A stretch of 41,806 nucleotides of DNA from Syntrophaceae bacterium (lineage in GTDB: Bacteria; Desulfobacterota; Syntrophia; Syntrophales; Smithellaceae). This document shows, in pieces, positions 508-36,327 of the stretch; the first letter of the stretch is position 1, and each line of letters begins with the position of its first letter. The notes under the pieces are model-generated. The model was not told the DNA's origin and made no database searches. It was given only the letters and a program-made list of their open reading frames with translations. Both the position numbers and the translations under genes were made by a program. The stretch is from positions 1 through 41,806 of the forward strand of contig PLMQ01000061.1 of NCBI GenBank assembly GCA_003142535.1. The letters are read 5' to 3'.

Positions 508-648
508 ATAATCACAAAAACGAATTATTCAAAGCAGAACGCGACGGCAAGGAGGAGGCGACGAGGCGTATTATATATATACATACGTTAAGGATGCCGA
601 CGAGGCAGCCAACAAAGTTATGCGCAGAATAATCCGCTTTTGTCTTAT
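508..648. repeat. Dispersed repeat family A, copy A1
   Basis: The 141-bp element is bounded by imperfect terminal inverted repeats (508-530 and 627-648; the shared pattern is ATAA, ACAAAA, CG, ATTATTC). The core contains the family signature GGCAAGGAGGAGG near 545 and AGCCAACAAAGTTA near 607-620. It sits between the ABC ATPase and the permease. Its right inverted repeat contains the stop codon of the ATPase (645-647). Other copies are A2 to A5. Confidence 0.75.
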
Positions 649-1364
649 TCATCGCGCAACCCTCTTCCTGTCTTTTCCAGAAAAAATTTTTCCAGATCAT
701 CAATTTCGTTCATATTGCCGTTAAATATAGCCGCGCCTTTATCCACTAGTGTAACTATACTGCACAAACGCTGGGCTTCATCCATAATATGTGTACAAAG
801 AAGGATGGTCATACCTTCAGCATTAAGCTTTGCTAATGTTTCATAAATATGATGACGGCTTTGGGGGTCAACTCCAACCGTGGGTTCATCCAAAAGAAGA
901 AGCTTTGGTGAATGCAAGAGTGCCACCGCCAGATTCAAACGCCTTTGCATCCCGCCCGAATACGTATTCACCTGCTTTAGCGCATGAGATGAAAGTCCCG
1001 TTTCTTCCAGAACCTTCTCTGAGCGATCCTTTAGCTCACTATCCGGCAAGCCGGCCATTGCGCCGAAGAATCTCAAATTTTCCATTGCCGTCAGGGTTGT
1101 ATATAAGGATATTGGTTGAGGGGCATAACCGATCGACCTGAGAGTGTTTTGATCCGGCATTTTGTCGCCGTAGATGAATACTTCACCCGAATATCCCCTC
1201 AACTCGCCGGTGATAATCCGCATCAAAGTGGTCTTGCCCGCGCCATTTGGTCCCAGAAGTGCGTGCATGCTGCCGACAGCTACGCTCAGAGAAAAATTTT
1301 GCAGAGCGCACACTGATGCCCCATCATAGCAAAATATAATCGAGGAAATTTCCAGAGCCTTCAT
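645..1364 (-). CDS. ABC transporter ATP-binding protein
   Basis: The 239-residue protein has the full set of ABC ATPase motifs. These are a Walker A GPNGAGKTT near residue 38, the Q-loop region (GYAPQPISLY), the signature YSGGMQRR, Walker B LLLLDEPTVGVD and a switch histidine (CTHIMDE). It would power the ABC-2 permease encoded just downstream (464 to 1). Its start overlaps the stop of the preceding BtrH-like gene by 4 bp (ATGA), which implies translational coupling to the BtrH-like cassette. Domain length is normal for the CcmA/NatA-type drug or lipid exporters. The substrate cannot be read from the sequence. Confidence 0.93.
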   Translation of the reverse strand: MKALEISSIIFCYDGASVCALQNFSLSVAVGSMHALLGPNGAGKTTLMRIITGELRGYSGEVFIYGDKMPDQNTLRSIGYAPQPISLYTTLTAMENLRFFGAMAGLPDSELKDRSEKVLEETGLSSHALKQVNTYSGGMQRRLNLAVALLHSPKLLLLDEPTVGVDPQSRHHIYETLAKLNAEGMTILLCTHIMDEAQRLCSIVTLVDKGAAIFNGNMNEIDDLEKFFLEKTGRGLRDE

Positions 1365-2395
1365 GCTTTCAGTTTTCTGACAACTTTCTGCAAATTTTTG
1401 AAAAATGCTTCTTCGCGATCAGCACATTTAAAAATCAAGCCACCCGCCTTGGCAAAGGTTTCTTCCTCTTTGCCTCTTTGCTTGATAATACGCGCGGCAA
1501 CCACGGAAAACTCACGCCAGGTATCACCGATAGCAGTCATATCACGCGATAACTGAGCCAAGTCTTCAGAGCCGAAAAGCTCAGCTGCTTCCTGCATAAA
1601 AACGGCATACATGTAACGAAATCCGGCACCCCCAGTGCCTGTCTCTTCCACCCAACGGACTGTACCGGCAAGATGACGACAGGCTTCTTGAAAACCAAGT
1701 TTGTCCGGACTTTTGATGACTTTTTTGGCCAGAAACCGCATACCGCGGACACCAAAAATCGGCAGAGGAATTCTGAGCATCAAGTTGCAGGAATCCTTCA
1801 TTCCCTTGATACACGCTCCGCGCAGATCAGGATGGGGATTAACTGATTTGGTATAATACATATACCCGCGGGGGTTCAAAGGACCAGGTACAAAACGTGC
1901 CCGTTCCAATCCATCCGCCAGGCAATCTACCAGATATCCAATTGTCGGGTCACTGATGCGAAAACCATTTTCAATCTCACGAATAACAATGATGTTGTGT
2001 CCGCTAAAATTATGGCGGTGACGTTCGGACATATAGGGAAGCCAGTAAAGATTAGTGGCCAGACCAACAATCTGCCCGGTTTTAAGCACCTGCCTTAGTT
2101 CATCCATGCCTTTTTGGGGATCGCGATAAGTCTTGATCACAAAATCTCCGCCTAGCCTTTTGGCCGCCTTGCGAAAGACCGACCCGGGTTTAGCCCGAAA
2201 AGCACTGATCGGTAAATGTGAAAGTTTCATAAACGGCAGATAACCAAAAAAAATACCGCTGCTGATGCCGAAAATCATCGGCTCGGAAATATCCACGCCC
2301 TGATAGCGAAATAGGGCGGATGTGACACCTGTCTCACAATGCGCGGCTTGATGATGAACGAATGGTTTACCATTGGCTGCGAGTTCTGTAGTCAT
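1361..2395 (-). CDS. BtrH-like (BtrH_N / DUF4872) putative acyltransferase, paralogue 1
   Basis: The 344-residue soluble protein has the BtrH N-terminal pattern: HCETGVTSALF with Cys20, ISEPMIFGISSGIFFGYLP, a GHN motif with His133 and SDP with Asp149. Together these look like a papain/C39-type Cys-His-Asp triad. In butirosin biosynthesis BtrH moves an acyl side chain from the carrier protein BtrI to the aminoglycoside, so an ACP-dependent acyl transfer role is plausible here but not proven. The C-terminal half is the alpha-helical DUF4872-like part, with GTGGAGFRYMYAVFMQEAAELF and AIGDTWREFSV. It is the last of three tandem paralogues and overlaps the ABC ATPase start by 4 bp. The gene for its HTH-like partner ends 25 bp upstream. 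Confidence 0.8.
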   Translation of the reverse strand: MTTELAANGKPFVHHQAAHCETGVTSALFRYQGVDISEPMIFGISSGIFFGYLPFMKLSHLPISAFRAKPGSVFRKAAKRLGGDFVIKTYRDPQKGMDELRQVLKTGQIVGLATNLYWLPYMSERHRHNFSGHNIIVIREIENGFRISDPTIGYLVDCLADGLERARFVPGPLNPRGYMYYTKSVNPHPDLRGACIKGMKDSCNLMLRIPLPIFGVRGMRFLAKKVIKSPDKLGFQEACRHLAGTVRWVEETGTGGAGFRYMYAVFMQEAAELFGSEDLAQLSRDMTAIGDTWREFSVVAARIIKQRGKEEETFAKAGGLIFKCADREEAFFKNLQKVVRKLKA

Positions 2396-2420
2396 GAAAT
2401 AATAGCATCCTTCCTTAATC

Positions 2421-2804
2421 TTAGATATTCGGCACGGTTTTTAATTCTTCCAGTGTGACCCTTAGGGCATTTGTGTAACGATTTAAAACAGATGGTTTAA
2501 GTTTGGCAAATATCTCAGGGCGAAAATGTCTCTTGACCCGAAATACCGCTATGCCCGCTGCCTTAGCCAGCATCCCCGATGTCAGCTGCCGCATTTCCAT
2601 ATAATAATAGATCGGGCTTTTCTGACCGGCAAGCACTGCTTTTCTGATTTCCTCGAGATTGGCGCGATTACCTGAAATAATCAGGGCACAAGATACTTTT
2701 TCCGCCCAGGGAGCGTCTGTCTCAAGGACATATTGCCCGTTATCGTCGTGCTTGTAATACGCTTTCGGCAACCCATCATTAAAAATTTCATCTTCTAATT
2801 CCAT
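2421..2804 (-). CDS. Small HTH-like protein paired with BtrH-like paralogue 1
   Basis: The protein has 127 residues. The N-terminal part is a short segment that recurs in its paralogues (YKHDDNGQYVLETDAPW). The second half resembles a Cro/XRE-type helix-turn-helix: SPIYYYMEMRQLTSGMLAKA, then AGIAVFRVKRHFRPEIFAKL and VLNRYTNALRVTLEEL. Two relatives lie upstream at 4005 and 5687. Each sits directly before a BtrH-like gene, so it may regulate the cassette or act as a partner protein. The start is supported by a GGGA run about 7 bp upstream. Function is inferred from fold resemblance only. It is the most divergent of the three at its N-terminus. Confidence 0.7.
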   Translation of the reverse strand: MELEDEIFNDGLPKAYYKHDDNGQYVLETDAPWAEKVSCALIISGNRANLEEIRKAVLAGQKSPIYYYMEMRQLTSGMLAKAAGIAVFRVKRHFRPEIFAKLKPSVLNRYTNALRVTLEELKTVPNI

Positions 2805-2851
2805 GGCCAGTTCCCTTTGATTATGTTGATGTTTTTACTTTTCTTATCTTA

Positions 2852-2857
2852 ATTTTA
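2852..2857 (-). promoter_or_regulatory. Conserved TAAAAT box, cassette 1
   Basis: A TAAAAT box on the minus strand lies 48 bp from the start codon at 2804 and is followed by an A/T-rich AAGAA stretch. Boxes with the same sequence occur at 4469-4474 and 6138-6143, at nearly the same distance from the paralogous starts. A convincing -35 is not visible, so the promoter assignment rests on conservation of sequence and spacing. Confidence 0.4.
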
Positions 2858-2957
2858 TCAAAACACAAAGTTATTTTTCACCAAACAAGAAACCTGTTCA
2901 CTTTATTGTTTTCAATAAGAAACAGACAAAAACTTATAGAGAAGATACAAAGCGTGT

Positions 2958-3995
2958 TTATGCCTTGAGTTTCCGTACCACATTATTCAGATCTTTAAAA
3001 AGCTGCTCCTCCCGTCCCGCGCAGATCATCATTAATCCGCCCGCCTTGGCAAAGGTCTCTTCGGCCTGGCCTTTCTGTTTGATGATGCGCGCGGAGACCA
3101 CCGCAAATTCACGCCAGATATCGCCGATGGCAGTCATTTCATTGGATAATCCGTTTAGTTCGGAGGACTCGAATAATTCGGAAGCTTCCTGTAGAAATGC
3201 TGCGAACATATAGCGGAACCCCGCGCCGCCTGTGCCCATTTCTTCCTGGAAACGCACGACATGAGCCAGTTGCCGGCAGGCTTCGACATTGCCCAGTTTA
3301 TCCGGCCATTTTATTATTTTTTTGGCTAGATAACGAATGCCCTTTACGCCGAAGAGCGGTATGGGAATTTTGAGCATCTGCTTGCAGGAATCCAGCATAC
3401 CAGTGATGCAGGCCTTCCTCATATCAGGATTGGGATTGACGGATAAAGGGTAGTACATCAAACCGCGCGCTTCCATCGGTCCGCGCGCGAAACGCGCCCT
3501 TTCCATATCGTGAGTTGAACAATCTAACGTGTATTCACGTAAAGCCGGGTCGCTCACCCGGAAACCATTTTCAGTTTCATACAAAACGATAAGGTTGTGG
3601 CCGTTAAAATTAAAGCGATAGCGTCTGGGAAAATAGGAAAGCCAGTAGACGTTGGTTGTTACCGCGACGATTTGTCCGGTCCGAATGACACGGCGCAGTT
3701 CATCCATGCCTTTTTGCGGATTGCGAAAATGTTTTCTGACAACCTTTGCACCCAGCCTTTTGGCTGCCTTCTTGAAAACCAGTCCCGGCAGAGATCTGAA
3801 AGTGCTAATTGGCAGTCCGGCCCATTTGACAAACGGCAGATGCCCGAAAAAAATACCACTGCCAATGCCGAAAATCATCGGTTCGGAAATATCAAAACCC
3901 TTATCGCAAAACAGAGCGGATGTAACTCCAGTTTCACAATGCGCGGAAGTACGATGAATATAAGTTCTACCATTGGCTAAAATTTCTGTCGACAT
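2958..3995 (-). CDS. BtrH-like (BtrH_N / DUF4872) putative acyltransferase, paralogue 2
   Basis: The 345-residue middle copy of the tandem triplet has the same architecture as the other two. Cys20 lies in HCETGVTSALF, His133 in NGHNLIVL and Asp149 in VSDP, and the family glycine-rich block IFGIGSGIFFGHLPF is present. The C-terminal helical region keeps GTGGAGFRYMFAAFLQEASELF and AIGDIWREFAVVSARIIKQ. All proposed catalytic positions are retained, so there is no sign of decay. Its HTH-like partner ends only 9 bp upstream. The three copies differ throughout their length, which argues for old duplications with divergence, perhaps in acyl or acceptor specificity. Confidence 0.8.
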   Translation of the reverse strand: MSTEILANGRTYIHRTSAHCETGVTSALFCDKGFDISEPMIFGIGSGIFFGHLPFVKWAGLPISTFRSLPGLVFKKAAKRLGAKVVRKHFRNPQKGMDELRRVIRTGQIVAVTTNVYWLSYFPRRYRFNFNGHNLIVLYETENGFRVSDPALREYTLDCSTHDMERARFARGPMEARGLMYYPLSVNPNPDMRKACITGMLDSCKQMLKIPIPLFGVKGIRYLAKKIIKWPDKLGNVEACRQLAHVVRFQEEMGTGGAGFRYMFAAFLQEASELFESSELNGLSNEMTAIGDIWREFAVVSARIIKQKGQAEETFAKAGGLMMICAGREEQLFKDLNNVVRKLKA

Positions 3996-4004
3996 GAATA
4001 ATGA

Positions 4005-4421
4005 TTACCTTTCTTGTGAATTATGAGGCACGGTTTTCAATTCTTCCTTTGTGATCTCGAGGGCTTTCGCGTAACTGTCCAGAACAGACTCTTTAAGCTT
4101 CGCAAATATTTCTGGCCGCAAATGCCTCTTGACCCGGAAGGTAGCAATGCCCGCTGTTTTTCCCAGAAATTTCGGTATCATCTGCCGCAGTTCCATATAA
4201 TAAGCAAGCGGACTTTTTTTACCTTCGAGCACCGCCTTTCTGGTTTCTTCCACTTTGGCTTTATATTCATTGAAAGCCAGCCTGTTTGTCAGTTCATCTA
4301 CATCCCAGCCCTTGCTGGGCACCATGACATATTTCCCCTGATCATCGAGGGCGTAATTTCCTTTTTTTATGCCTTCAGAATAATCGGGTACGTCATCCTG
4401 CGGTACTTCGTTTACTTTCAT
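4005..4421 (-). CDS. Small HTH-like protein paired with BtrH-like paralogue 2
   Basis: The 138-residue paralogue of the proteins at 2421 and 5687 starts MKVNEVPQDD, nearly the same as the third copy. A YALDDQGKYVMVPSKGW segment follows, then a charged helix (KVEETRKAVLEGKKSPLAYY). The HTH-like half is AGIATFRVKRHLRPEIFAKL followed by YAKALEITKEEL. An AGGAG ribosome-binding site sits 6 bp before the ATG at 4421. The downstream BtrH-like gene starts 9 bp after the stop, so the two are almost certainly cotranscribed. DNA binding is inferred from the HTH-like pattern. No target is evident apart from the conserved box upstream of each cassette. Confidence 0.7.
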   Translation of the reverse strand: MKVNEVPQDDVPDYSEGIKKGNYALDDQGKYVMVPSKGWDVDELTNRLAFNEYKAKVEETRKAVLEGKKSPLAYYMELRQMIPKFLGKTAGIATFRVKRHLRPEIFAKLKESVLDSYAKALEITKEELKTVPHNSQER

Positions 4422-4468
4422 AGCCGACTCCTGCTGATCATGTTGATAATTTTGTTTTTCTTATAATA

Positions 4469-4474
4469 ATTTTA
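4469..4474 (-). promoter_or_regulatory. Conserved TAAAAT box, cassette 2
   Basis: A TAAAAT box on the minus strand lies 48 bp from the start at 4421. The surrounding sequence (an ACTTTGCGT-like run before it and AAGAAA after it) resembles the region upstream of the start at 2804. Confidence 0.4.
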
Positions 4475-4544
4475 GCAAGACGCAAAGTGATTTTTTGTAA
4501 AGCAGTATCATGGCAGAATGTAATCGAGGAAATATGAAGCGCGT

Positions 4545-5579
4545 TCATACCTTGAGCTTCCTAACGACTTCATTGAGTTTTCTAAAGAGAGCTTCTTCGC
4601 GGGCGGCGCATTCCATTAAAATGTCATAGACCTTATCAAAAGTATCTTCGGTCTTGCCGCGCTGTTTGATGATGCGCGCTGAAACAACGGCAAATTCCCG
4701 CCAAATATCGCCGATTGCCGTCATTTCCTGCGATAATTGTTTTAGTTCATCCGATTGAAATAGTTCACCTGCTTCCTGCAGAAACGCCGCGTACATGAAA
4801 CGGAATCCGGCGCCGCCTGTCCCAATTTCTTCCTGCATACGAACAATATTGCCCAAATGCCGGCAGGCTTCATGAAAGCCCAGTTTCTGCGGGCTATTTT
4901 TTATTCTCTTCGCCAGAAAGCGGATACCGCGTACGCCAAAGATTGGTATGTGTGTGCGCAGCATCATATTGCAGGTATCTTTCATACCTTTGATGCAGGC
5001 TTTTTTAATATCGGGATTTTGGGGAACAAATGATGGGTAATACATAAGGCCATGCGGCTCCAGGGGGCCATGGGAAAAACGCGCCCGTTCCAGATCTTCC
5101 GCCAGGCAATCCACCGGATGCTCCAGCACCGGATCGCTGACGCGAAAGCCACCTTCGATTTCCCTGAGCGCAATTAAATTATGGCCGTTGAATTGAAAAC
5201 GGAAGCGATTGGGGAAATAGGAAAGCCAATAAATATTTGTTGTTAATCCTACAATTTGCCCTTGTTTGAGTAACTGGCGTAATTCAGCCATGCCTTTTTG
5301 CGGATTGCGGAAACGCTTGGTGACAAATTTCACTCCCAGACGTTTCCCTGCTTTCCTAAAGACGGCGCCGGGTTGGGAACGAAATGTTGTTATCGGTAGC
5401 CCGACCATTTTGACAAAAAATAAATGTCCGAAAAATATGCCGCTGCCGATGCCAAAGACAAGCGCTTCGCTGATATCAAGCCCCTGATCGCGGAAAAGTG
5501 CGGACGTAACGCCGCTCTCACAATGGGCAGAATGATTATGGACAAACGGTTTCCCGCTGGCTGTTATTTCTATGTTCAC
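4545..5579 (-). CDS. BtrH-like (BtrH_N / DUF4872) putative acyltransferase, paralogue 3
   Basis: The 344-residue first copy of the triplet carries Cys20 in HCESGVTSALF, a GHN motif (FNGHNLIALRE), VSDP, and the IFFGHLFF block that follows the glycine-rich turn. It ends in the same basic VVRKLKV tail that all three share in similar form. Unlike the other pairs, its HTH-like partner ends 107 bp upstream, because a family B hairpin element (5601-5676) lies in the gap. That element could uncouple expression of the two genes. No strong ribosome-binding site sits next to the ATG; the nearest candidate is an AAAGGT about 18 bp upstream. Confidence 0.8.
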   Translation of the reverse strand: MNIEITASGKPFVHNHSAHCESGVTSALFRDQGLDISEALVFGIGSGIFFGHLFFVKMVGLPITTFRSQPGAVFRKAGKRLGVKFVTKRFRNPQKGMAELRQLLKQGQIVGLTTNIYWLSYFPNRFRFQFNGHNLIALREIEGGFRVSDPVLEHPVDCLAEDLERARFSHGPLEPHGLMYYPSFVPQNPDIKKACIKGMKDTCNMMLRTHIPIFGVRGIRFLAKRIKNSPQKLGFHEACRHLGNIVRMQEEIGTGGAGFRFMYAAFLQEAGELFQSDELKQLSQEMTAIGDIWREFAVVSARIIKQRGKTEDTFDKVYDILMECAAREEALFRKLNEVVRKLKV

Positions 5580-5600
5580 TATATATTTATTACCTTTCTA

Positions 5601-5676
5601 ATGAGACCCAAGTTTCAGAAACAAAGTGCGCTGAAACTTGCTGGTCGAATTATCCCACTAGCGAAGCTAAGTGGGG
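5601..5676 (-). repeat. Family B hairpin repeat, copy B1
   Basis: A perfect 10-bp stem, CAAGTTTCAG (5609-5618) with CTGAAACTTG (5631-5640), is followed by a second hairpin, CCCACT/AGTGGG (5654-5675). Between them lies a diverged form of the family linker TTCAACTTACC. It lies between an HTH-like gene and the BtrH-like paralogue 3, oriented with its GAAACTTGG end toward the start codon. Copies B3 and B4 are placed the same way. Confidence 0.65.
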
Positions 5677-5686
5677 CTTAATTATA

Positions 5687-6091
5687 CTATTTTTCCGGTA
5701 CGCTTTTTAATTCATCAAAAGTCAGCTTAAGCGCATACGCGTAGCGCTCTAAAATGGAAGATTTAAGATTACTAAATACATCCGGCCGAAAATGCCGGCG
5801 GACACGAATACTCAGTATGCCGACTGTTTTGGCCAGAATCTCCGGGGTCATTTGCCGTCGTTCCATATGATAAACCAGCGGACTTTTTAATCCCTTTAAA
5901 ACTTCCTGCCTGGTTTTTTCCAGATTAGTTGCAAGTTCGGCAACGGCCAGACCATTGACGACATCTTCGGCGCTCCAGCCGCAGCTGGGAACGATTACGT
6001 ATTTTCCCTGATCATCCAACGCATAGCAGGCGCGTCTGGCACCTTCATAAAAAGTTATGTCCTGCGGAACTTCATTAACTTTCATTCTCAA
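5687..6091 (-). CDS. Small HTH-like protein paired with BtrH-like paralogue 3
   Basis: The 134-residue protein begins MRMKVNEVPQD. Its GGGGAG ribosome-binding site is 7 bp from the ATG at 6091 and 13 bp from the second ATG at 6085, so 6091 is preferred. It carries the family YALDDQGKYVIVPSCGWS block, a linking helix and the HTH-like part VGILSIRVRRHFRPDVFSNL followed by YAYALKLTFDELKSVP. It is the first gene of the three-cassette array. The stretch 6092-6215 separates it from the acyltransferase that ends the PKS operon, so the array may have its own transcript. Confidence 0.7.
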   Translation of the reverse strand: MRMKVNEVPQDITFYEGARRACYALDDQGKYVIVPSCGWSAEDVVNGLAVAELATNLEKTRQEVLKGLKSPLVYHMERRQMTPEILAKTVGILSIRVRRHFRPDVFSNLKSSILERYAYALKLTFDELKSVPEK

Positions 6092-6137
6092 GCTCCCCTT
6101 GCCTCAAATTAACAAAAATCAGAAGCTTCTTACACTA

Positions 6138-6143
6138 ATTTTA
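6138..6143 (-). promoter_or_regulatory. Conserved TAAAAT box, cassette 3
   Basis: A TAAAAT box on the minus strand lies 47 bp from the start at 6091, matching the other two cassettes. It is the furthest upstream box of the array and therefore the best candidate for the main promoter of the whole BtrH/ABC operon. Confidence 0.4.
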
Positions 6144-6215
6144 TAAAGCAGCAAAGCATAAATTTCTCGTAATTATTAAGGCTGTAAAACTGAAAAAATG
6201 TGAGATTAGAAACAA

Positions 6216-7109
6216 TCAGGGGCTACCACCATCATCAATCTTTTTTCCTAAGAACGGCTCAAAGTGATACCACTCAAAAGGATGCTCCCGGGCAACCTGC
6301 TCCAGCGTACTTGCATAGGCTTGAGCGGATTCCAGAACAGCCCTGGTTCTATCCGCTCTGGTTGCCGCCTTGACTTCTCGTCCGGGGGAAATTTTAATAT
6401 GATATTTTCTGGGGGCGGTCTGAAAAACAAAGAAAGTGAAAAGAGGCGCGCCGGACATTAATGCAAAAAGATGTGGAATATCCGGCAGCTGCACTTTATG
6501 ACCAAGAAAATTGACCGTCACCGAGCGCTGATTACCCCATAGACGATCACCGGTCAAAGATACAAGTCCTCCCTGCCGCAGAAAATTGATCCCTTCCAGA
6601 AGGGCAAAGGGTGAACTTTCATCCTCCGTTGTTGTAACTATTTTTACACCGTTTTTGGCCAGCGTTTCTTTCTGCAAGCGTTCAATCTGCTCTTTATGTT
6701 TCTCGCCCAGATAAAGCATGATAGGCATGCCCCGGCTGTTCAGCTTTTGCGCCGCAAACTCCCAGTTACCGATATGGGACATGACGATTATTGCCCCTGT
6801 CTTTTTTCCCGCCGCTTCATCCAGATACTCCCATCCTTCTTTAGTGAAATCTACGGCATTGCCTTCCTGCATAAGAAAGCGGTCCAAAAAGACATCCGTG
6901 AAATTGTGATACTGCCGCCAAACGCAAAGTAAATGATAAAATAATCCCCGCCGCTGGAAAAGGGCTTTGTAAAACTTCCGGCTGCTGGCTACACGCTGCG
7001 GGAAAAAAAGAAAATAACCGGTGGCAATGAACCAGGAAAATATGCGAAAAACCCAAAGCCCAATGTGATCGGATAAATAGATCGCCAATTTATATGACTG
7101 TTTTTTCAT
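6216..7109 (-). CDS. LpxL/HtrB-type lipid A acyltransferase-like protein
   Basis: The 297-residue protein from ATG 7109 has one N-terminal hydrophobic segment (IFSWFIATGYFLFF). The catalytic HX4E motif is HIGNWE, with His112 and Glu117, and later blocks are typical of the family (SLTGDRLWGNQRSVTVNFLG; PLFTFFVF). Members use acyl-ACP to acylate a lipid at the inner membrane. In aryl polyene clusters a homologue is thought to help attach the polyene to its lipid anchor. An in-frame ATG at 7169 would overlap the upstream gene by 53 bp. The ATG at 7109, 8 bp after that gene's stop codon, is preferred and gives normal family length. It is the last gene of the first biosynthetic operon. Confidence 0.85.
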   Translation of the reverse strand: MKKQSYKLAIYLSDHIGLWVFRIFSWFIATGYFLFFPQRVASSRKFYKALFQRRGLFYHLLCVWRQYHNFTDVFLDRFLMQEGNAVDFTKEGWEYLDEAAGKKTGAIIVMSHIGNWEFAAQKLNSRGMPIMLYLGEKHKEQIERLQKETLAKNGVKIVTTTEDESSPFALLEGINFLRQGGLVSLTGDRLWGNQRSVTVNFLGHKVQLPDIPHLFALMSGAPLFTFFVFQTAPRKYHIKISPGREVKAATRADRTRAVLESAQAYASTLEQVAREHPFEWYHFEPFLGKKIDDGGSP

Positions 7110-7116
7110 AAATAAC

Positions 7117-10100
7117 TTATCTTTTTCCGATGAACCATTTTTCTTCAACTTCAGCTTCTGCAGACGCATGTATGTTTACCGCGAAACCGACTGCTATCAT
7201 AAAAGTGGCAATTTCTTTTTCACGACGGAAGCGTTGTGGCATCTTAGTCATCTTTAAACGAGTCGCTTCTATCCAGCGTTTCCAGGGAATTTTTCTCTCA
7301 GTGGGAACTGTCGCCCGGATAATCAATGTCCCGCCTATGGAAAGTTTCTGATATATCCGCTGCAAGATAAGTTGCAATTCTTCATCGTTAATCAGATGCA
7401 GCATATCGAGCATCATTACGGTATCAACTTCACCTTCCACCACCGGTAAATCCGGCGCCCGCCCCACTTCGATGTGACCTCGGCTGCTAATGACGTGCGA
7501 AGCAATTAAGACACGTACTTCGTCCGGCTCCAATCCATATACTTTAGCGTCGGGATAGATTTCCAAAAGCCAGGTAGCAGGAATCCCATAGCCGCAACCA
7601 ATATCGATAATCCGGCGGGGATTTTGTACATAAAGATCAAGTTCTTTAAACATAGGATCCATCATTATTTTAAAACGGGCAAATAGTCGCGGATGCGCTT
7701 CCAGATGACGGTAGCGCAACAAGGTGCGGCGTAAATGTTCTTTCGACCCAATCACCATCGGGCCGGAAGGAAATGTAAAGGGTGCATATATTTTTTTGAG
7801 CAGTGTCGGCAGAATCAAATAAGCTCCGATAATGGAATAGCCGATGCCCAGCAAAGATGTAAGTCCGATGCTGCGCAAAAGATTATGCTTGGCAATGGCC
7901 AGCACGCCAAACCCGATGAGTGTGGTAAATGCCGCTAAAAACATGGCCAGTTTGATAATATCCATCGCCGGATGTTTTTCATCGCGGTAACGCTGGTAAA
8001 AGCAGGCATAATAAATAGAGTAATTGATTCCCATGCCCATGATGATAATCCAAAGCATGATACCGGGTATATCCAATGGATGGCCGATGATTTTCAGAGT
8101 TCCCAATGTGGATATCAACGCAAAAGTAATGGGAGCAATAACGGCCAGCGATAAGAGCCAGTCGAGATAAAAAACAAAGATGATAACTGTTGTTCCAATA
8201 GCCGTGATCAAAGCAATTTGCACAAAAATATTCTGGAGAAAATCTCCCAGTCTTTTATTAAACAGGCCGACATCAAATATTTTTGCCAGCCCCTGTGGAC
8301 TCAGACGGGAAACAAAATCCTCGGCATTATAATTCTTGCCGGTCGCCAGCAGGGTCAATTGCGTGTATCCGGTTGCATCTTTAGCAATTCCCATAAATTC
8401 AAAATATTTTTCCGGGATCACTCCCTGCTGCGGATTTTTATTATTGATCATTTTCCAGAATGGGGCAAAGGCGGATGGCGCGAAGCCGTTTGTTCTCGCT
8501 GCGGCATCCATATCATTTCTGAGCTTCGCCAGACGTTGCTTATTCCAGAAACTCTGCCAGGCCGCCAGATTTTTTTGACCTGTTTCACGCGAAGGAAACA
8601 GCACGGTCGGCAGAAAGGCCGACGCTAGTTTTTCCTTTTGCACATCATCTGTCAAGAGCGGCAGTAATTGATCATTCTTTTGTTGCAGTTGCGTAATGCT
8701 TGGCGCCTGCAGAAAAATATAGCACTTGCCGGAAAAATTGCCCCAGGTTTCCTGCAATTTCTTTTCGGCACCAATTGTCTCTTGGCTCATCGAATTCATC
8801 GAATTGATGTTGGCATCAAATTGAGGATAAGCAAAAAACAGCATCACCACCCCGAACAATGTGGCGACGATCAGCTTCCATTTAGCGGGAGCGGCAACTT
8901 TTTTAATGACGTTGAGAAGAACAGGATTGCTCTGACGGGCTGCCGGCGGCATCGCCGGAAAAATTTTGGGAAAAATAAAAAGGACGAAAAGAAGTGCAAA
9001 ACCGACTCCCAGTGCCGAGAATACGCCGATTTCGGCCAGAATTTTAAAATCACTGATTAGCAGCAGCAGAAAAGAACCCACGGTAGTAAGCACTGCCAAC
9101 AGTTCGGCTAACCGTACCTCTCGCGCAACTTTCTTGCCATATGTCTCTTTGTTCTGATCCAGAAACAGCAGATAGGTAATCCCCAGATCAACAGTGAAAC
9201 CCATTATCGCACCACCGAAACCAATGGCCAGCATAGACATGGATTTAAAGAAAAAAGAGCAAACAAATAAAGCGGCAATCGAACCAACCATTGATGGCAA
9301 TAATGCCAAAAGGCCGATTAGCGGCCGGGGGAAAGCAAACAGAAGTAAAAGGGCAATTCCCAATGTGGTTAAAATAAGAGCGATGCGCGTATCTCGTTTG
9401 GCCGTCGTCTCATTATCGAGCGCGGCACGATACGCTCCCACAGGGCTTAATATATATTTTTGGCCACTTGCCGCTGGATCGGACTGCAAACTTTTCTCGA
9501 TATCTTTGATCAGGGTGGTAATTTTAGCGGCTGTTGCCGTATCCGTTCCTGAGCCGGCAATCTTCGCAATAATCAGTGCGTGTTTCCCGTCCTCCGAAAT
9601 CAACTGGCCTTGATAAAACTGAGCCTTGCCGGCCGGCATTAAGGCTGATAATTGTCGCAGGACTATACCGGAAAGACCCAAGGGATCTTTGGTAATCATT
9701 TCACTGCGGCCGATTCCCTCCAGTTGTTCCAGGCTCTGCTGATTCTGCATAAAAGCTTCATTTATCCGGTCGGTCTCCAGAAGGGGCTTGATTTCTTTTT
9801 CCAGTTTTTCAGCGCTGAAAAGAAGGGGCAGGTTGTCGGTTACATGCGCCAATAATTGCGGAAAATATTTAGCCTCATCATTTATTCCCACTTTGGCAAA
9901 AAGGCCGCTTTTCATGAGCTTTTCACTGATTAAAGAAGCCGTCGTGACCAACTTATCTTTATCCGGCGAATCCTGGCTTACATCAATAAAAATTCTATCC
10001 TGAATGGGCAAGAGTTTAATGATCCGGCGGGCATCGGATAACACCGGATCGCCTTTAGGCATTGACTCCAGAATATCGGTTTCAATTTTTAAATGATTTG

Positions 10101-10182
10101 ATTCCCAGACGAATAAAATTGCCACGATAAAAGCAACTATAGCGATTATTGACCATTTTATTTGATATTTGCGTAATGACAT
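7117..10182 (-). CDS. MMPL/RND-type exporter fused to a SAM-dependent methyltransferase
   Basis: The 1021-residue protein has two parts. The first ~800 residues form an MMPL-type transporter: a first helix at residues 10-27, a large periplasmic domain, a helix bundle near 265-410, a second periplasmic domain and a second bundle near 650-800. The last ~165 residues form a class I methyltransferase with motif I IIDIGCGYGIP starting near residue 858, an acidic ELEP-like loop (YGLEPDE) and VDTVMMLDMLHLI. Aryl polyene clusters typically contain an MMPL protein and a methyltransferase, and here they are one polypeptide. Transport of the lipid-linked product and O-methylation of the aryl head is the likely joint role. 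The downstream acyltransferase starts 8 bp after the stop. Confidence 0.9.
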   Translation of the reverse strand: MSLRKYQIKWSIIAIVAFIVAILFVWESNHLKIETDILESMPKGDPVLSDARRIIKLLPIQDRIFIDVSQDSPDKDKLVTTASLISEKLMKSGLFAKVGINDEAKYFPQLLAHVTDNLPLLFSAEKLEKEIKPLLETDRINEAFMQNQQSLEQLEGIGRSEMITKDPLGLSGIVLRQLSALMPAGKAQFYQGQLISEDGKHALIIAKIAGSGTDTATAAKITTLIKDIEKSLQSDPAASGQKYILSPVGAYRAALDNETTAKRDTRIALILTTLGIALLLLFAFPRPLIGLLALLPSMVGSIAALFVCSFFFKSMSMLAIGFGGAIMGFTVDLGITYLLFLDQNKETYGKKVAREVRLAELLAVLTTVGSFLLLLISDFKILAEIGVFSALGVGFALLFVLFIFPKIFPAMPPAARQSNPVLLNVIKKVAAPAKWKLIVATLFGVVMLFFAYPQFDANINSMNSMSQETIGAEKKLQETWGNFSGKCYIFLQAPSITQLQQKNDQLLPLLTDDVQKEKLASAFLPTVLFPSRETGQKNLAAWQSFWNKQRLAKLRNDMDAAARTNGFAPSAFAPFWKMINNKNPQQGVIPEKYFEFMGIAKDATGYTQLTLLATGKNYNAEDFVSRLSPQGLAKIFDVGLFNKRLGDFLQNIFVQIALITAIGTTVIIFVFYLDWLLSLAVIAPITFALISTLGTLKIIGHPLDIPGIMLWIIIMGMGINYSIYYACFYQRYRDEKHPAMDIIKLAMFLAAFTTLIGFGVLAIAKHNLLRSIGLTSLLGIGYSIIGAYLILPTLLKKIYAPFTFPSGPMVIGSKEHLRRTLLRYRHLEAHPRLFARFKIMMDPMFKELDLYVQNPRRIIDIGCGYGIPATWLLEIYPDAKVYGLEPDEVRVLIASHVISSRGHIEVGRAPDLPVVEGEVDTVMMLDMLHLINDEELQLILQRIYQKLSIGGTLIIRATVPTERKIPWKRWIEATRLKMTKMPQRFRREKEIATFMIAVGFAVNIHASAEAEVEEKWFIGKR

Positions 10183-10320
10183 TCAAACCACGAATTTATT
10201 GCAGTTTTTTCCCATGGGGGATTGCTCTCCTAAACCACATTTCCCCACTGGAGGCAAGCCAAAAGAGATTAATGCCAGAATAGGCCGCAGGCCGGAATAT
10301 TTTTTCTCCGCTACACCAAT

Positions 10321-11046
10321 TCACGAATTAAGGCAACGAAAAATTCTGGTAAAAATCAGGCGGGTAAAGGTTGCGGAGTTGCGCAGAAAATCAACAAAGG
10401 GGCGGAAATGGGAAATTCTTGCTCCGGCCGGATTATAATTAACGCGCACCGGAGCTTCAATTACAGAAATCCCTTTTCGCTTTGCCTGTACTAATATTTC
10501 CACTTCAAACTGAAAACGCCTTGCTCTGGTCGGTAGTTCAATTGCTTCCGGTAACGGATAAATGCGCATACCACTTTGGGAATCGGAAAGTATTGGCCCG
10601 CCGGAGAGCCAAACCCAGAAGTTGGAAAACTTCCGGCCAAAGCGGCTAGTCCAGGGCACATGCTTACCAGTCATGCCCTCCCGCGCGCCCACCACTATTG
10701 GGCGCATGCCTTCCGGGATGGCGTCAATCATTTTCAGCGCATCTTCCGCATAGTGCTGGCCATCAGCATCTATAGTGATAGCCTGGTCGGCCACAGAGGC
10801 GGCGGCAATGAAGCCGGTCAGCATTGCTGCGCCTTTACCCATATTGTCTTTATGACGAATAACAGTAATCCCCGGAATATCTTTAATCTGATTATAGGTA
10901 GAATCAGTTGATCCGTCATCAACAACAATCACCGGAAAATTAAGCGCCCGTGCCTGTTGAATAACCTGCACGACCGACCCTTCGTGATTGTAAACGGGAA
11001 TGACAAATGCAAAACGCCCTTTGTTATGAGTGTCCACTATGACCAT
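10321..11046 (-). CDS. Family 2 glycosyltransferase
   Basis: The 241-residue GT-A fold enzyme has the nucleotide-sugar region VVDDGSTDST, the DXD motif in TIDADGQH, and SDSQSGMRIYP and FEVEILVQAKRKG blocks typical of dolichyl-phosphate-mannose-synthase-like GT2 proteins. No C-terminal membrane pair is present. It could glycosylate the pigment or its lipid anchor; GT2/acyltransferase proteins are common in aryl polyene loci. The longest frame starts at 11154 but would overlap the upstream gene by 95 bp and add residues unlike the family. The ATG at 11046, just after the upstream stop at 11060, places the first beta-strand (FAFVIPVYN) at the normal distance from the N-terminus. No good ribosome-binding site is visible. 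Confidence 0.85.
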   Translation of the reverse strand: MVIVDTHNKGRFAFVIPVYNHEGSVVQVIQQARALNFPVIVVDDGSTDSTYNQIKDIPGITVIRHKDNMGKGAAMLTGFIAAASVADQAITIDADGQHYAEDALKMIDAIPEGMRPIVVGAREGMTGKHVPWTSRFGRKFSNFWVWLSGGPILSDSQSGMRIYPLPEAIELPTRARRFQFEVEILVQAKRKGISVIEAPVRVNYNPAGARISHFRPFVDFLRNSATFTRLIFTRIFRCLNS

Positions 11047-11059
11047 ACAAGTATAATTA

Positions 11060-12775
11060 TTATATTCGTAAAGCCGCCTCCGGCAGGAAAGCCAGTGCCC
11101 ATGTACCCGGCCCATAGTGCGCGCCAGACGTGAGCGAAAGCGGTTGTAATACAATTTCCGCCTGCGGGTAGAGCTCCTCGATCATCTTTTTTGCTGTACT
11201 TTCCACCCAGGCAAAGTTATCCGAATACTCCAGCATAATGAAAGCGCTGGAATCTTTTTTCAGAGAAGCGGCTAATTTCTCCATAGCCATTTTTACCTGT
11301 TCATCTGTATTGCGCACCACACCGACTTTCTTTGCCCCCTCCGGTTGCGGTGATATAACCGGCTTCATTTTCAGCATATCTCCGAAAAAGGCGCTTGTCT
11401 TGGATAGCCGCCCACCCGCAGCCACATACTCCAGCTTGTCTAAAAACACATACTCCTCGCAATTAGCTACAGCCTTTTGTGCAAAAGAAATTGTTTTTTC
11501 TACATCACCTGTTTCGGCCAGATGACAGACAGTAGCCAGAACCATTGTCCCCAACCTTCCCGACGCCGCACCGGAATCAACAACTATAAGCCTGTCTTGC
11601 GGATCGTGCTTCTCTTTCCATTCCATAGCAACCTGATAATTGCCTGTATAGACGGACCCGACGCATAAATACAAAACCTTGGCAAACCGGTCCATAACGC
11701 TTTCATAAAACTGATGCCTTTCAAAAACAGAAGCCTGTGATGTGGATACTTTTACCCCCTGTCTCATAGAGCGGTAAAGCTCCTGCGGATGGAGGTGTGT
11801 TTCCGGCACACACTTTTCACCCAGGGTGATATAACTATTCAGAAGGGTTATACTGTATTTTTTTGCATCATCGCGGGTAACGGAACCGGCTGCGTCAGTC
11901 ATGACATGCAATTTATGTGGCGACTTGATGCTCATAAATTCTTTCATCTGTTCTTGCAGATTATCATCTTCCCAGTTCAGCATACTGCCCAGACTGGAAA
12001 TATCCGATTTTACCTTTTCTCTGTCCGCCGTATGCAGATGAATTTTATAAAGATCACCGTCAGGAATAATCACGACACTTTCCTGGGTCTGTGTAATTCT
12101 GGCCAATTCATCCCGGGAAAGGTTCTGCGCTTTCAGAACAAAGTCAACACAGTAACCGTTTTCCGCATCTTCCTGAAACGAAGAAGATATCTGTAAACGA
12201 TTTTTAAATACTTCTGTTACCGGACGGTATGTTTCGCCGATTCCCGCCAAGGCATGGAAAAATCCTTCGAAGAAAATATACATGCCCAGAGCACCGGAAT
12301 CCACTACACCGGCCTTTTTTAGCTTGGGCAGCAATTCGCCGGTTTCCCAAACTGCCGCCTCTAAACGGCCGATAATGGATTGAACTTCTTCTTTATCCGG
12401 TATCACGCAGCCTTGTGGAATTGCTTCGGCTAGAGCATCGAATAAGGTGAGCATTGTTCCCGGACGCGGATCGCCAACCGCTCTCCAGGCGCGATCCCGC
12501 CCTTCCTGCGCGCCACGGTACAAATCGGCAAGATAGAATGCCGAGAAAAATTGCGAGGCAATATTGCCGGAATTACCGCGTGCCGATAAAAGAAGCTGCT
12601 GAATGATTTTTCCCTTTTTCTGACCGGACGCTCTTAACGGGGAAAGACTGATCGAAAGATTGCGACCGGTATCACCGTCGGCAATCGGAAAAATATTGAT
12701 GGCATCCAGCAGATCCGCCCACGCAGAAACTCTTTCCACCCCGGTGATAAATGATTTGTGCAATTTTTCATCCAT
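11060..12775 (-). CDS. Fused DhaL (FakA-like) and DegV (FakB-like) protein, putative acyl kinase
   Basis: The 571-residue protein has an N-terminal DhaL/FakA-like domain with the metal/ATP motif DGDTG (residues 33-37), ARGNSGNI and the AGVVDSGALGMYIFFEGF block. A middle linker domain follows (about 195-275). From about 280 it is a DegV/FakB fatty-acid-binding domain with VMTDAAGSVT, STSQAS, VDSGAASGRLG and LEYVAAGGRLSK. In the bacterial fatty acid kinase, FakB presents the fatty acid and FakA phosphorylates its carboxylate. Here both halves are one chain within a polyene operon. It may make an acyl or aryl phosphate, or scavenge released chains. Its start overlaps the thioesterase stop by 8 bp, which indicates tight coupling. 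Confidence 0.85.
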   Translation of the reverse strand: MDEKLHKSFITGVERVSAWADLLDAINIFPIADGDTGRNLSISLSPLRASGQKKGKIIQQLLLSARGNSGNIASQFFSAFYLADLYRGAQEGRDRAWRAVGDPRPGTMLTLFDALAEAIPQGCVIPDKEEVQSIIGRLEAAVWETGELLPKLKKAGVVDSGALGMYIFFEGFFHALAGIGETYRPVTEVFKNRLQISSSFQEDAENGYCVDFVLKAQNLSRDELARITQTQESVVIIPDGDLYKIHLHTADREKVKSDISSLGSMLNWEDDNLQEQMKEFMSIKSPHKLHVMTDAAGSVTRDDAKKYSITLLNSYITLGEKCVPETHLHPQELYRSMRQGVKVSTSQASVFERHQFYESVMDRFAKVLYLCVGSVYTGNYQVAMEWKEKHDPQDRLIVVDSGAASGRLGTMVLATVCHLAETGDVEKTISFAQKAVANCEEYVFLDKLEYVAAGGRLSKTSAFFGDMLKMKPVISPQPEGAKKVGVVRNTDEQVKMAMEKLAASLKKDSSAFIMLEYSDNFAWVESTAKKMIEELYPQAEIVLQPLSLTSGAHYGPGTWALAFLPEAALRI

Positions 12776-13190
12776 TGGAAAAACCTAACGCCTGACGAAT
12801 TTCATCGGGAATACTGAATATTGTTTCCATTTCCGGAGCCTGCACTGTCACTTGCTCGGTGCGTCCGCGCGCACAGACTTTGCCATCCGTCGCCATCCTG
12901 ATTTCAAAATCAACGACAAGTTTCACGCGGGCATCCACAAGTATGGCCTTGATAATAATTTCATCGCGATGGCGCAGAGGATAGATATGTTTGGTTGAAG
13001 TCCGAATTATTGGAAATAACAACTTATGACGTTCGTAATAGGAATAAAGATCAACGCCGTAATGTTCTAATAGCGCCGCGCGGGCAATTTCAAAATAGTT
13101 AAGATAGTTGCCGTGCCAGACTATCTGCATGGGATCCAGATCAAAAAAAGGCACGGAATATTTCACTTCAAAGCTTTTTTTTGTGTTCAT
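12768..13190 (-). CDS. 4HBT-family acyl-CoA/ACP thioesterase
   Basis: The 140-residue hotdog protein has the YbgC/4-hydroxybenzoyl-CoA thioesterase signature: PFFDLDPMQIVWHGNYLNYF, with the catalytic-position Asp in DLDPM, and ARAALLEHYG. Family members hydrolyse acyl or aryl thioesters. Thioesterases of this kind occur in aryl polyene clusters, where they may release or edit chains. It overlaps the downstream fatty-acid-kinase-like gene by 8 bp, so release of an acid followed by phosphorylation is an attractive but untested pairing. A palindromic repeat (13210-13338) separates it from the ammonia-lyase gene upstream. Confidence 0.88.
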   Translation of the reverse strand: MNTKKSFEVKYSVPFFDLDPMQIVWHGNYLNYFEIARAALLEHYGVDLYSYYERHKLLFPIIRTSTKHIYPLRHRDEIIIKAILVDARVKLVVDFEIRMATDGKVCARGRTEQVTVQAPEMETIFSIPDEIRQALGFSNG

Positions 13191-13209
13191 TATTGATTAA
13201 CTCCAAATC

Positions 13210-13338
13210 GACCTCGTAAAGGGCCGCAATAAGCTTGCCCCGTACTTGACACGGGGAAAGGCTGCAGCGCATCCGGCATTCGCCGGATTTACTTCGCATA
13301 TGCATGCCCGGCGCATGCCGGGGACTTTTTACAAGGTC
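13210..13338. repeat. Compound palindromic repeat (family C)
   Basis: The outer inverted repeat GACCTCGTAAA (13210-13220) pairs with TTTACAAGGTC (13328-13338) at 10 of 11 positions. It encloses three hairpins: CCCCGT/ACGGGG (13238-13256), ATCCGGC/GCCGGAT (13271-13288) and CCCGGC/GCCGGG (13307-13322). It fills the gap between the ammonia-lyase stop and the thioesterase start within the operon. In RNA it would be highly structured and could attenuate or process the transcript. Confidence 0.7.
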
Positions 13339-13339
13339 G

Positions 13340-14890: not shown

Positions 14891-14922
14891 TCTTAAAACC
14901 GCTCCTTTCGCTTTAGACGAAC

Positions 14923-16152
14923 TTACTCGCGTACGCGAGCTTTATAGGTGTTATCCTCTTTTTCTTTTTCCACAACTTTTTTCAGAAGCTTGAACATCTT
15001 ATAATTCTGCGGCTCATCGCGATAGAAAGTCTCCCAGGCATAATAATAAAGCTCCTGCAATTTTTCCGGTGTCAGCAACTTGGGTTGGAAAACAACTTTG
15101 CCGCTGGTGTAATTGTTCCAGTCATAGGTAAATATTCTTTTTTCTTTCTGGAAATCGTCAAAAGTCCGCGTGTGCGGGAACGGAGTAAGCACCGTAAATT
15201 CCGCCATATCGAGATCCACTTCCAGGAGAAAATCAACCAGCTTTTTGATGTAATCTTCCGTGTGATAATCGAGTCCCAACAAAATGCTGCCTTCCACGGC
15301 AATGCCATAATCATGGTATCTTTTAATGCGGTCGCGGATGAAATCGGATGAATCAAAGATTGCCTGATACACAAACCAGGCTCCGGCCTGCGCGGCGAGG
15401 TCTAACACCTGATCATCGTTTTCGATGGGATGACAGCACCATTTCTTTTTCAGCGGTATCATTTCTTTAAACAAACCGATTTCCCATTCTTTATCCTGCG
15501 CCAGGGAATTATCAACGATGAAAAGTCTGTTATTATCAATGCTGGCCATTTCCTCAATTACTTTATCAAACGGGCGGGGACGGAATTGGCGGCCACCTAA
15601 GAAATTAACGCAACACGGATAGCAATTAAAACGACAACCGCGGGAAGCATGTATCAGATCCACCATCTGTACGCCGCGGTAGTTATACAAGTCTCTATTT
15701 AAAATGCTGCGCCTCGCCGTGCCCACCGATTCAATCGGCGGAAAATTCTGATAATAGTCATACACTTTTTGCAATTTACCGTTTTTAAAATCGGCAAACA
15801 CCTGCTCCATGCGGCCTTCCGCTTCCCCGATAAAGACGACATCGGCATGCAGTTGCGTCTCTTCCGCATGCAGCATGGTGGCAATTCCGCCAAAAATTAC
15901 TTTGATGCCCAATTGCCTGTAGGCATCGGCAATTTCCCAACCGCGTTTAATCTGCGAAGTCAACATCGCGGAGATACCGACAAAATCTGCATCTTTTTCG
16001 ATGTTCAAAGATTCGGCATTTTCATCAATAAATTCGACCTGCACATCTGACGGTATTGTCGCAGCAAAAACAACCGGCCCATGCGGCGGTAACAGAAACC
16101 GCGTTTGTTGATCGAGTTTTTCCCATTTCGGATATATCAGTTTAAATTTCAT
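14923..16152 (-). CDS. B12-binding-type radical SAM protein
   Basis: The 409-residue protein has an N-terminal Rossmann-like region resembling cobalamin-binding domains (VGISAMLTSQI; VIFGGIATMLHAEE), followed by the radical SAM CX3CX2C motif at Cys173, Cys177 and Cys180 (GCRFNCYPC). The usual DxHxxG cobalamin lower-ligand motif is not visible, so any B12 would be held differently, or is absent. Later blocks (FIVDNSLAQD, LLGLDYHTEDY, LTPFPHTRTF) fit the B12-radical SAM superfamily. Many relatives methylate unreactive carbons or rearrange hydrocarbon skeletons. In this operon it could tailor the aryl or polyene part. It is 32 bp upstream of the ammonia-lyase and 19 bp downstream of the acyl-CoA dehydrogenase. 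Confidence 0.82.
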   Translation of the reverse strand: MKFKLIYPKWEKLDQQTRFLLPPHGPVVFAATIPSDVQVEFIDENAESLNIEKDADFVGISAMLTSQIKRGWEIADAYRQLGIKVIFGGIATMLHAEETQLHADVVFIGEAEGRMEQVFADFKNGKLQKVYDYYQNFPPIESVGTARRSILNRDLYNYRGVQMVDLIHASRGCRFNCYPCCVNFLGGRQFRPRPFDKVIEEMASIDNNRLFIVDNSLAQDKEWEIGLFKEMIPLKKKWCCHPIENDDQVLDLAAQAGAWFVYQAIFDSSDFIRDRIKRYHDYGIAVEGSILLGLDYHTEDYIKKLVDFLLEVDLDMAEFTVLTPFPHTRTFDDFQKEKRIFTYDWNNYTSGKVVFQPKLLTPEKLQELYYYAWETFYRDEPQNYKMFKLLKKVVEKEKEDNTYKARVRE

Positions 16153-16171
16153 ACTACCTCTTCCTTATAAA

Positions 16172-17314: not shown

Positions 17315-17353
17315 ATCAATCCTACTGAAACAAATTCATTGCAAACTAATTAT

Positions 17354-18874: not shown

Positions 18875-18895
18875 TTTTTTTCCTCCCTGCTCCGA

Positions 18896-30981: not shown

Positions 30982-30982
30982 C

Positions 30983-32230: not shown

Positions 32231-32233
32231 AAG

Positions 32234-35410: not shown

Positions 35411-35433
35411 TCCACACCTTTTTTAAAGTCACG

Positions 35434-36305: not shown

Positions 36306-36327
36306 TTATAATCAATCTCCTCAAATA

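Follow-up and report, generated by a model that had tools for sequence, protein, structure and literature searches.

An array of three DarG-DarH cassettes of different classes in a probable dar-type operon of a Syntrophaceae bacterium

The DNA analyzed here (referred to as the window; 41,806 bases) is the first part of contig C24 (PLMQ01000061.1; 89,246 bases) of a Syntrophaceae bacterium, whose 2.93-Mb genome is assembled in 70 contigs. As shown in Table 1, the minus strand contains, head to tail and in reading order, darG1, darH1, darG2, darH2, darG3, darH3 and a gene encoding an ATP-binding cassette (ABC) ATPase. This bears out the arrangement described in an earlier note on this sequence, namely three pairs of helix-turn-helix (HTH)-like and BtrH-like genes placed before an ABC gene (645–6091). 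The small proteins of the pairs are 134, 138 and 127 amino acids (aa) long (mutual identity 46–55%), and their larger partners 344, 345 and 344 aa (65–67%). These proteins correspond to DarG and DarH, known from pigment clusters of the dialkylresorcinol type. The locus is probably an acyl-transfer operon of the dar type (dialkylresorcinol/flexirubin-like), with an array of exchangeable cassettes in place of the single DarG-DarH cassette that is usual.

All three DarH proteins contain the BtrH_N (E 2.4e-39 to 1.9e-37) and DUF4872 (E 3.2e-54 to 1e-46) domains and exceed the 300-bit cut-off of the NCBIfam equivalog NF053550. The three small proteins exceed the 70-bit cut-off of the DarG_fam subfamily (NF053536). 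None of them reached the 170-bit cut-off of the flexirubin DarG equivalog NF053545 (118.0, 122.3 and 85.5 bits), and a Pfam search with these proteins returned no family above its cut-off. A scan of GTDB genomes yielded 311 confirmed DarH relatives, the best 80 of which (79 loci), together with the window, underlie the locus counts given below. Each of the 97 DarH copies in these loci and the window has a DarG partner (one darG, that of L035, is incomplete and lies at the edge of its contig), a pairing far beyond chance. For six distant BtrH-like proteins from other genomes of the order (L120, L125, L135, L163, L164 and L165), whose scores are far under the DarH cut-off, no match to DarG was found in the fetched stretch. 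Two genomes (G052 and G069) carry an extra, strongly diverged DarG-DarH pair on its own branch (L118:9537–11010 and L130:3234–4719).

The ATPase gene is followed by an ABC-2 permease gene cut by the contig start. The remaining part of this permease (residues 148–373) occupies positions 1–678 of contig C54 (3,391 bases), where it precedes genes for an acyl carrier protein (ACP)-like protein, a ketosynthase (KS) recognized by Pfam and a shorter KS-like protein. In locus L012, the gene in the ACP slot gave a PP-binding match slightly above the cut-off (22.8 vs 20.8 bits). When the window and C54 are joined via the split permease, the resulting order is that of dar genes: darG-darH-ABC ATPase-permease-ACP-KS. 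Since the permease, ACP and KS parts lie together on C54, and since the same genes are grouped in the dar cluster of Azoarcus sp. BH72, as far as its description was available (PMC3949708), the layout was interpreted as a dar operon with extra cassettes. The permease that follows the ATPase agrees with the "exporter" label given previously, and the transporter may act in this way. No match to darA was found in the genome of the window. A single strong match to DarB was detected (455.9 bits, below the curated cut-off of 550), unlinked to the array (C34:32941–34077).

Table 1. Features identified in the window. SH-aLRT, Shimodaira-Hasegawa-like approximate likelihood ratio test; pLDDT, predicted local distance difference test.
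Feature	Position	Strand	Evidence
DarG, class alpha (134 aa as listed from TTG)	5687..6091	-	NF053536 136.1 bits; outside beta/gamma clades of DarG tree
DarH, class alpha	4545..5579	-	NF053550 423.4 bits; AlphaFold2 mean pLDDT 90.6; fold match AziU3/CtaG/CcbD; Cys20/His133/Asp149
DarG, class beta	4005..4421	-	NF053536 135.6 bits; 12-row clade, SH-aLRT 97; AlphaFold2 model with HTH
DarH, class beta	2958..3995	-	NF053550 391.7 bits; 12-row clade, SH-aLRT 100
DarG, class gamma	2421..2804	-	NF053536 93.5 bits; 14-row clade, SH-aLRT 99
DarH, class gamma	1361..2395	-	NF053550 368.4 bits; 14-row clade, SH-aLRT 99
ABC transporter ATPase, 4-base overlap with darH3	645..1364	-	PF00005 E 1.4e-31; similarity cluster in 77/80 loci
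ABC-2 permease, N-terminal part, cut by contig start	6..464	-	78% identity to residues 1-153 of L012 permease
Apparently laterally spread beta cassette (element + darG2 + darH2)	2958..4496	-	DNA identity to L014 mostly 0.88-0.96 vs 0.70-0.78 in darH1
Apparently laterally spread gamma stretch (darG3 + most of darH3)	1560..2820	-	DNA identity to L022 0.87-0.94 vs 0.59-0.74 in ABC gene
Promoter-like element before darG1	6124..6163	-	weight-matrix score 34.3; 1 mismatch to genome-wide pattern
Promoter-like element before darG2	4455..4494	-	weight-matrix score 47.7; 1 mismatch to genome-wide pattern
Promoter-like element before darG3	2838..2877	-	weight-matrix score 38.9; 2 mismatches to genome-wide pattern
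LpxL-like acyltransferase, conserved gene before array	6216..7169	-	PF03279 E 5.3e-18; just upstream in 34/38 Smithellaceae arrays
Aryl-polyene-type genes, co-directional	7117..21380	-	MMPL-methyltransferase, GT2, DAK2-DegV, thioesterase, ammonia-lyase, B12-radical SAM, acyl-CoA dehydrogenase, CoA ligase, two ketosynthases

Comparison of folds settled the relationship of DarH where sequence searches had not: a search of solved structures with one DarH sequence gave no match, a DarH profile gave only borderline ones (AziU3/Azi29, E 0.19), and a DarG profile a single unrelated chain (E 0.46). The AlphaFold2 model of DarH, built with 59 sequences (mean pLDDT as in Table 1; predicted template modelling score 0.90), was matched over its full length by Foldseek and VIA-align to AziU3 (8gs1; Z 25.0), CtaG (Z 24.8) and CcbD (Z 21.0), at 11–14% identity. 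Mostly over the N-terminal half, the model also resembles the peptidases PeiR (Z 12.1), ComA (11.5) and PCAT1 (11.3), all with Z of at most 12.1. With respect to C39 peptidases, the N-terminal half is similar (ComA), and the whole chain fits acyltransferases better. Since an ABC transporter follows, the BtrH-like proteins might conceivably be peptidases of a peptide-export system. This is extremely unlikely, however, as the match that includes the helical C-terminal domain is to AziU3, CtaG and CcbD, NF053550 is an acyltransferase family, and the operon contains ACP-like and KS genes.

The residues Cys20, His133 and Asp149, noted previously in the first two paralogues with the same motifs in the third, are present in all three copies and invariant in 97 of the 97 DarH copies. 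According to their titles, PDB entries of CtaG include the variants C11A, H128A and D144N, and those of CcbD the variant C19S. The His and Asp residues are separated by 16 residues in both CtaG and DarH. In the available part of its description, CcbD takes up an acyl group from a carrier protein on its cysteine and transfers it by a ping-pong mechanism with a Cys-His-Glu triad (PMC12945683). For CtaG, transfer of hydroxybenzoate from a carrier protein onto another chain has been proposed (PMC6772006). The modelled fold and the invariant residues strongly suggest that DarH is an acyltransferase; together with the operon's own ACP-like and KS genes, they support the earlier proposal of acyl transfer from a carrier protein. 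The acyl group, an aryl-polyene acid or another polyketide acid, would thereby pass from the carrier protein to Cys20 of DarH, with His133 and Asp149 forming the remainder of the triad, and then on to the hydroxyl of a small molecule. DarG would act as a constant small partner of DarH, and the ABC-2 transporter would move the product onward.

Analysis of the distribution of the cassettes revealed more than one of them (two or three) in 14 loci, i.e. the window and 13 of the loci L012–L048, while the 42 loci L049–L090 contain one each. The name Smithellaceae is used here for loci L012–L048 and for family f1 of the genome search. The nearest relatives of the DarH proteins of the window have names such as Smithella, Smithellaceae, Syntrophaceae and Deltaproteobacteria, and, judging from these names, the host is presumably an anaerobe. 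Trees of DarH and DarG (63 pairs) contained two clades of identical membership, beta (12 rows) and gamma (14 rows), with the support given in Table 1. Alpha denotes the remaining Smithellaceae copies and is a label rather than a demonstrated single clade. A second DarH tree, which included the family genomes, agreed (beta 14 rows, gamma 15). Recent tandem duplication was rejected, since each DarH of the window is nearer to a copy from another genome (85, 91 and 90% identity) than to its neighbours. An assembly artefact is also unlikely, as an independent genome (L033/G051) shows the same alpha-beta-gamma order and the genome of the window is rated 100% complete with 2.1% contamination.

The copies are old classes common to Smithellaceae. 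Between the DarH classes of the window, synonymous differences amount to 0.71–0.74 per site, and 12 within-class DarH pairs gave ratios of non-synonymous to synonymous change (dN/dS) of 0.06–0.25. Two gamma DarG pairs gave values of 0.40–0.50, with few synonymous changes. In 33 of the 38 Smithellaceae arrays both flanking genes are on the contig, and these arrays are considered complete. They comprise alpha (17), alpha-beta (3), alpha-gamma (3), alpha-beta-gamma (2), alpha-gamma-gamma (1), beta (3), beta-gamma (3) and gamma-gamma (1). The order alpha, beta, gamma is kept in all 12 mixed complete arrays.

Comparative sequence analysis pointed to exchange of the beta and gamma cassettes between genera. 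Synonymous differences, compared in the same genome pairs of 12 loci, were lower than in alpha in all 10 pairs for beta and in 14 of 15 pairs for gamma. They were also lower than in the upstream acyltransferase gene in 19 of 19 (beta), 23 of 24 (gamma) and 16 of 24 (alpha) pairs. Between the window and L014, differences per site were 0.67 for alpha and 0.26 for beta, compared to 0.77, 0.71 and 0.76 for the acyltransferase, MMPL and ATPase genes, respectively. DNA identity to L014 rises from approximately 0.7 to 0.9 near base 4500, at the element before darG2, and drops at approximately 2960, the end of darH2. The match of the gamma cassette with L022 begins at 2820, near the start of darG3, and drops near 1560, inside darH3; the L022 copy lacks the upstream element. 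Since beta and gamma are far more alike between genera than are the flanking genes, and since the identity steps lie near the cassette edges, the two were considered to have been exchanged laterally. They would thus be old relatives that moved among genera in cassette form, beta together with the upstream element and gamma at least from darG on. Several observations weigh against this conclusion: the pairs share genomes and are not independent; L033 and L044 show the opposite trend (alpha 0.22, gamma 0.58), which replacement of gamma would explain; and the standard deviation of GC content at third codon positions (0.03 for beta and 0.03 for gamma, compared to 0.04–0.06 and 0.05–0.08 in the respective same-locus flanks) lends better support for gamma but weak support for beta, whose flanks themselves vary so little. 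The start of the permease gene (1–452) is 90% identical to that of L014, compared to 68% for the alignment of the array including the neighbouring ATPase gene; therefore, recombination may extend beyond the cassettes.

Each cassette of the window is preceded by a promoter-like element of the form CTTTG(C)-16-TATAAG in A/T-rich surroundings. It was found before 43 of the 55 Smithellaceae darG copies, of all classes. Its sites were located via the TTAGTATAA core, the CTTTG part having played no role in this step, and were used to train a weight matrix. Among the 12 darG copies without the element, L034 and L035_1 have no upstream sequence, L022_2 and L038_2 begin at the end of the preceding darH, and in L030 the element is present further upstream. 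Scanning 1.70 Mb of loci gave 37 sites above the threshold, all of them within L012–L048 (634 kb) and each before a darG (35 assigned by the script rule; the sites at L030 9226 and L046 9523 were missed there owing to open reading frame start calls). None was detected in the other 1.06 Mb, comprising L049–L090, the darB loci L166–L190 and two stretches of the window's own genome. A search of the window's entire genome ranked the elements of the three cassettes first (1, 1 and 2 mismatches), followed by five matches with 3 mismatches; the reversed-pattern control gave seven matches in all. With altered spacing (12 N instead of 11 N), the three cassette sites were missed and 2 matches with 3 mismatches were obtained (1 in the control).

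The element may be a dedicated promoter or an operator bound by DarG. The AlphaFold2 model of DarG2 (mean pLDDT 83) contains a Cro/Xre-type HTH at approximately residues 63–133, in the C-terminal half, in line with the "HTH-like" label of the earlier note; the similarity is modest (best Z 8.7 over 64 residues; Foldseek E-values 0.01 at best). DarG might therefore be a DNA-binding autoregulator of each cassette, acting via the upstream element, rather than a DarH subunit, as the predicted fold and the confinement of the element to sites before darG would suggest. We regard this role as possible but doubtful, since the element resembles a -35/-10 promoter in which visual inspection showed no clear dyad, folds similar to this HTH are also part of enzymes such as HEPD and HppE, and the DarG-DarH pairing also holds in L049–L090, where the element was not found. 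Moreover, DarG follows DarH class for class, which fits a protein partner equally well.

The link with DarB was examined in 155 genomes of the order, a hit of E 1e-60 or better being counted as a DarB relative and one of E 1e-10 or better as DarH. DarH is present in 68 genomes (64 above the cut-off), a DarB relative in 34 and both in 31; thus, 31 of the 34 DarB-bearing genomes contain DarH. Within the family (51 genomes), DarB relatives were detected in 19 of the 30 genomes with alpha, in none of the 10 with beta and/or gamma only and in none of the 11 that lack all classes (Fisher p 0.0005 between the first two groups). Alpha is present in each of the 19 family genomes that have a DarB relative. 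A beta-gamma genome (G034), 98% complete and in approximately 10 contigs, is DarB-negative. Beta and gamma seem independent of DarB, and its absence from the 10 genomes suggests another acceptor. In genomes with DarB, class alpha would serve its product, a resorcinol or cyclohexanedione lipid. Beta and gamma probably use another donor or acceptor.

A number of points weigh against such a division. The curated cut-off of 550 bits is exceeded in only 2 of the 34 DarB genomes, and positives at E 1e-60 also occurred among the controls (2 of 14 genomes). Since 8 of the 10 beta/gamma-only genomes are from one genus, these cases are not independent, and several of them are incomplete (79–100%). Furthermore, 11 of the 30 alpha genomes and 37 of the 68 DarH genomes of the order have no detectable DarB, and its product therefore cannot be the only acceptor. 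Finally, only 13 clean class-specific positions were found in DarH.

These observations bear on two alternative explanations. The three cassettes might catalyze the same reaction with the same substrates, the copies being gained and lost by recombination, either for dosage or through drift, without specialisation. The scarcity of class-specific positions is consistent with this, as are the identity of the triad and adjacent residues in 97 of 97 copies and the fact that a single class can fill a complete array. It is nevertheless rather unlikely, as the classes are old and under purifying selection and alpha alone is tied to DarB. In addition, 5 of the 13 class-specific positions are within residues 104–129, before the catalytic His. 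This stretch was chosen after the list had been seen, and it corresponds to that in which CcbD binds its acceptor, according to the available part of its description (PMC12945683). Conversely, a single pathway might require all three classes at once, each of them modifying its own acceptor. The constant order of the classes and the link of alpha, but not of beta and gamma, to DarB favour this, but the three classes occur jointly in only 2 of the 51 family genomes and complete arrays of one or two classes are common, which makes it improbable. The earlier suggestion of a different acceptor for each copy therefore stands in part. Since the copies represent distinct classes that differ in their link to DarB, different substrates are plausible; the alpha-only, beta-only and gamma-gamma arrays (17, 3 and 1 of 33) speak against three obligatory decorations.

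Within Desulfobacterota, the darA slot beside darB is often occupied by a gene encoding a B12-binding radical S-adenosylmethionine (SAM) enzyme. Directly upstream of the 69 DarB genes in the examined loci, such a gene was found in 35 cases and darA in 31 (26 in Chitinophaga), with a contig edge in 2 cases, neither gene in 1 and both in none. The genome of the window is an example, with a radical-SAM gene (L007:12938–15435) directly before darB on its contig C34. The 34 DarB genomes of the order contain a strong DarA match (5) or the radical-SAM gene (28), never together, and in the remaining one (G004) darB is at a contig edge. Two genomes without DarB have a radical-SAM gene at a contig edge (G059) and a weak DarA match of 53 bits (G074). 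These cases are not independent, since a single switch was placed on the DarB tree; the adjacency is still widely kept. DarA is described as an aromatase in the accessible part of PMC3949708. The simplest reading is that DarA has been replaced by an oxygen-independent radical-SAM enzyme, ring methylation being a possible alternative role. The radical-SAM/darB pairing was not described among the literature matches listed, which were judged by titles and abstract openings and included few subscription journals.

A tentative proposal is that the exchange of cassettes of darG, darH and the upstream element allows Smithellaceae to vary a membrane pigment or lipid. Alpha would load polyene acids onto the DarB ring product, and acquired beta and gamma cassettes would use other acyl groups or acceptors, so that one backbone would give different products in related strains; with the B12-radical-SAM enzyme in place of DarA, this would be an anaerobic dialkylresorcinol route or a variant of it. 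The array suggests that genes of biosynthetic specificity move as cassettes between genera of mostly uncultured anaerobes, and the genes beside darB point to a possible oxygen-independent replacement of DarA.

The ammonia-lyase encoded upstream of the array, among the aryl-polyene-type genes (13340–14890), scored 305.1 bits against the FlxA cut-off of 700, and the product is therefore not called flexirubin. Other ammonia-lyase models gave higher scores, all below their own cut-offs. In the same region, ORFs encode (i) a protein of 1021 residues in which an MMPL/RND-type transporter is fused to a C-terminal methyltransferase (7117–10182; cluster present in 26 Smithellaceae loci) and (ii) a DAK2-DegV fusion combining FakA-like fatty acid kinase and FakB-like parts (11060–12775; cluster in 18 loci, 17 of them Smithellaceae). 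Further along the window are a second polyketide/fatty-acid-type set (30193–36756), consisting of an acyltransferase, a ketosynthase, a CrtD-like oxidoreductase, a LolA-like protein and a short-chain reductase, and an MFS-like membrane part fused to a spermidine-synthase domain (38979–40529).

BtrH of the butirosin pathway, which DarH resembles in its BtrH_N domain, transfers an acyl group from a carrier protein and forms an amide on an aminoglycoside. To our knowledge, BtrH does not occur in a tandem array. CcbD, CtaG and AziU3 share the full-length fold of DarH, with an N-terminal catalytic cysteine in CcbD and CtaG (C19 and C11). As far as their descriptions were available, the two differ from the function proposed here, in that CcbD forms an amide with a sugar amine (PMC12945683) and CtaG acts in closthioamide assembly (PMC6772006). 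The celluxanthenes, aryl polyenes of anaerobes, are reported in the accessible text to be made by an iterative type I polyketide synthase and represent a different system (PMC12144888).

Among the closest counterparts are known dar clusters. In Azoarcus sp. BH72, a BtrH-like darE, the small conserved darD and genes for an ABC ATPase, a permease, an ACP and a ketosynthase are found together (PMC3949708), so that the claim that no described system has this layout did not hold; moreover, NCBIfam names both proteins. That cluster, as far as described in the same source, has one BtrH-like gene and includes darA and darB, whereas the window has three cassettes, no darA was found in its genome and the DarB relative is on another contig. 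The Azoarcus genes named darG and darH encode prevent-host-death and PilT-domain proteins and do not correspond to DarG and DarH of NCBIfam. The dar cluster of Chitinophaga (L049 and relatives; in L049, darG-darH-ABC-permease-ACP-KS-KS) has the same order as here but, unlike the window, each of the 26 Chitinophaga loci has only one cassette, and darA immediately precedes darB. A tandem darG/darH array was not described among the literature matches, within the limits given above for the radical-SAM gene. The enzyme that esterifies aryl polyenes with resorcinols has only been proposed, the ligase-like FlxW being the candidate named in the available part of PMC3992019. The array provides three natural variants of another candidate, DarH, which occurs with and without DarB, and the specificity for donor and acceptor is therefore directly testable. 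The operon is thus of a known kind, and its new feature is the array of exchangeable, class-structured acyltransferase cassettes.

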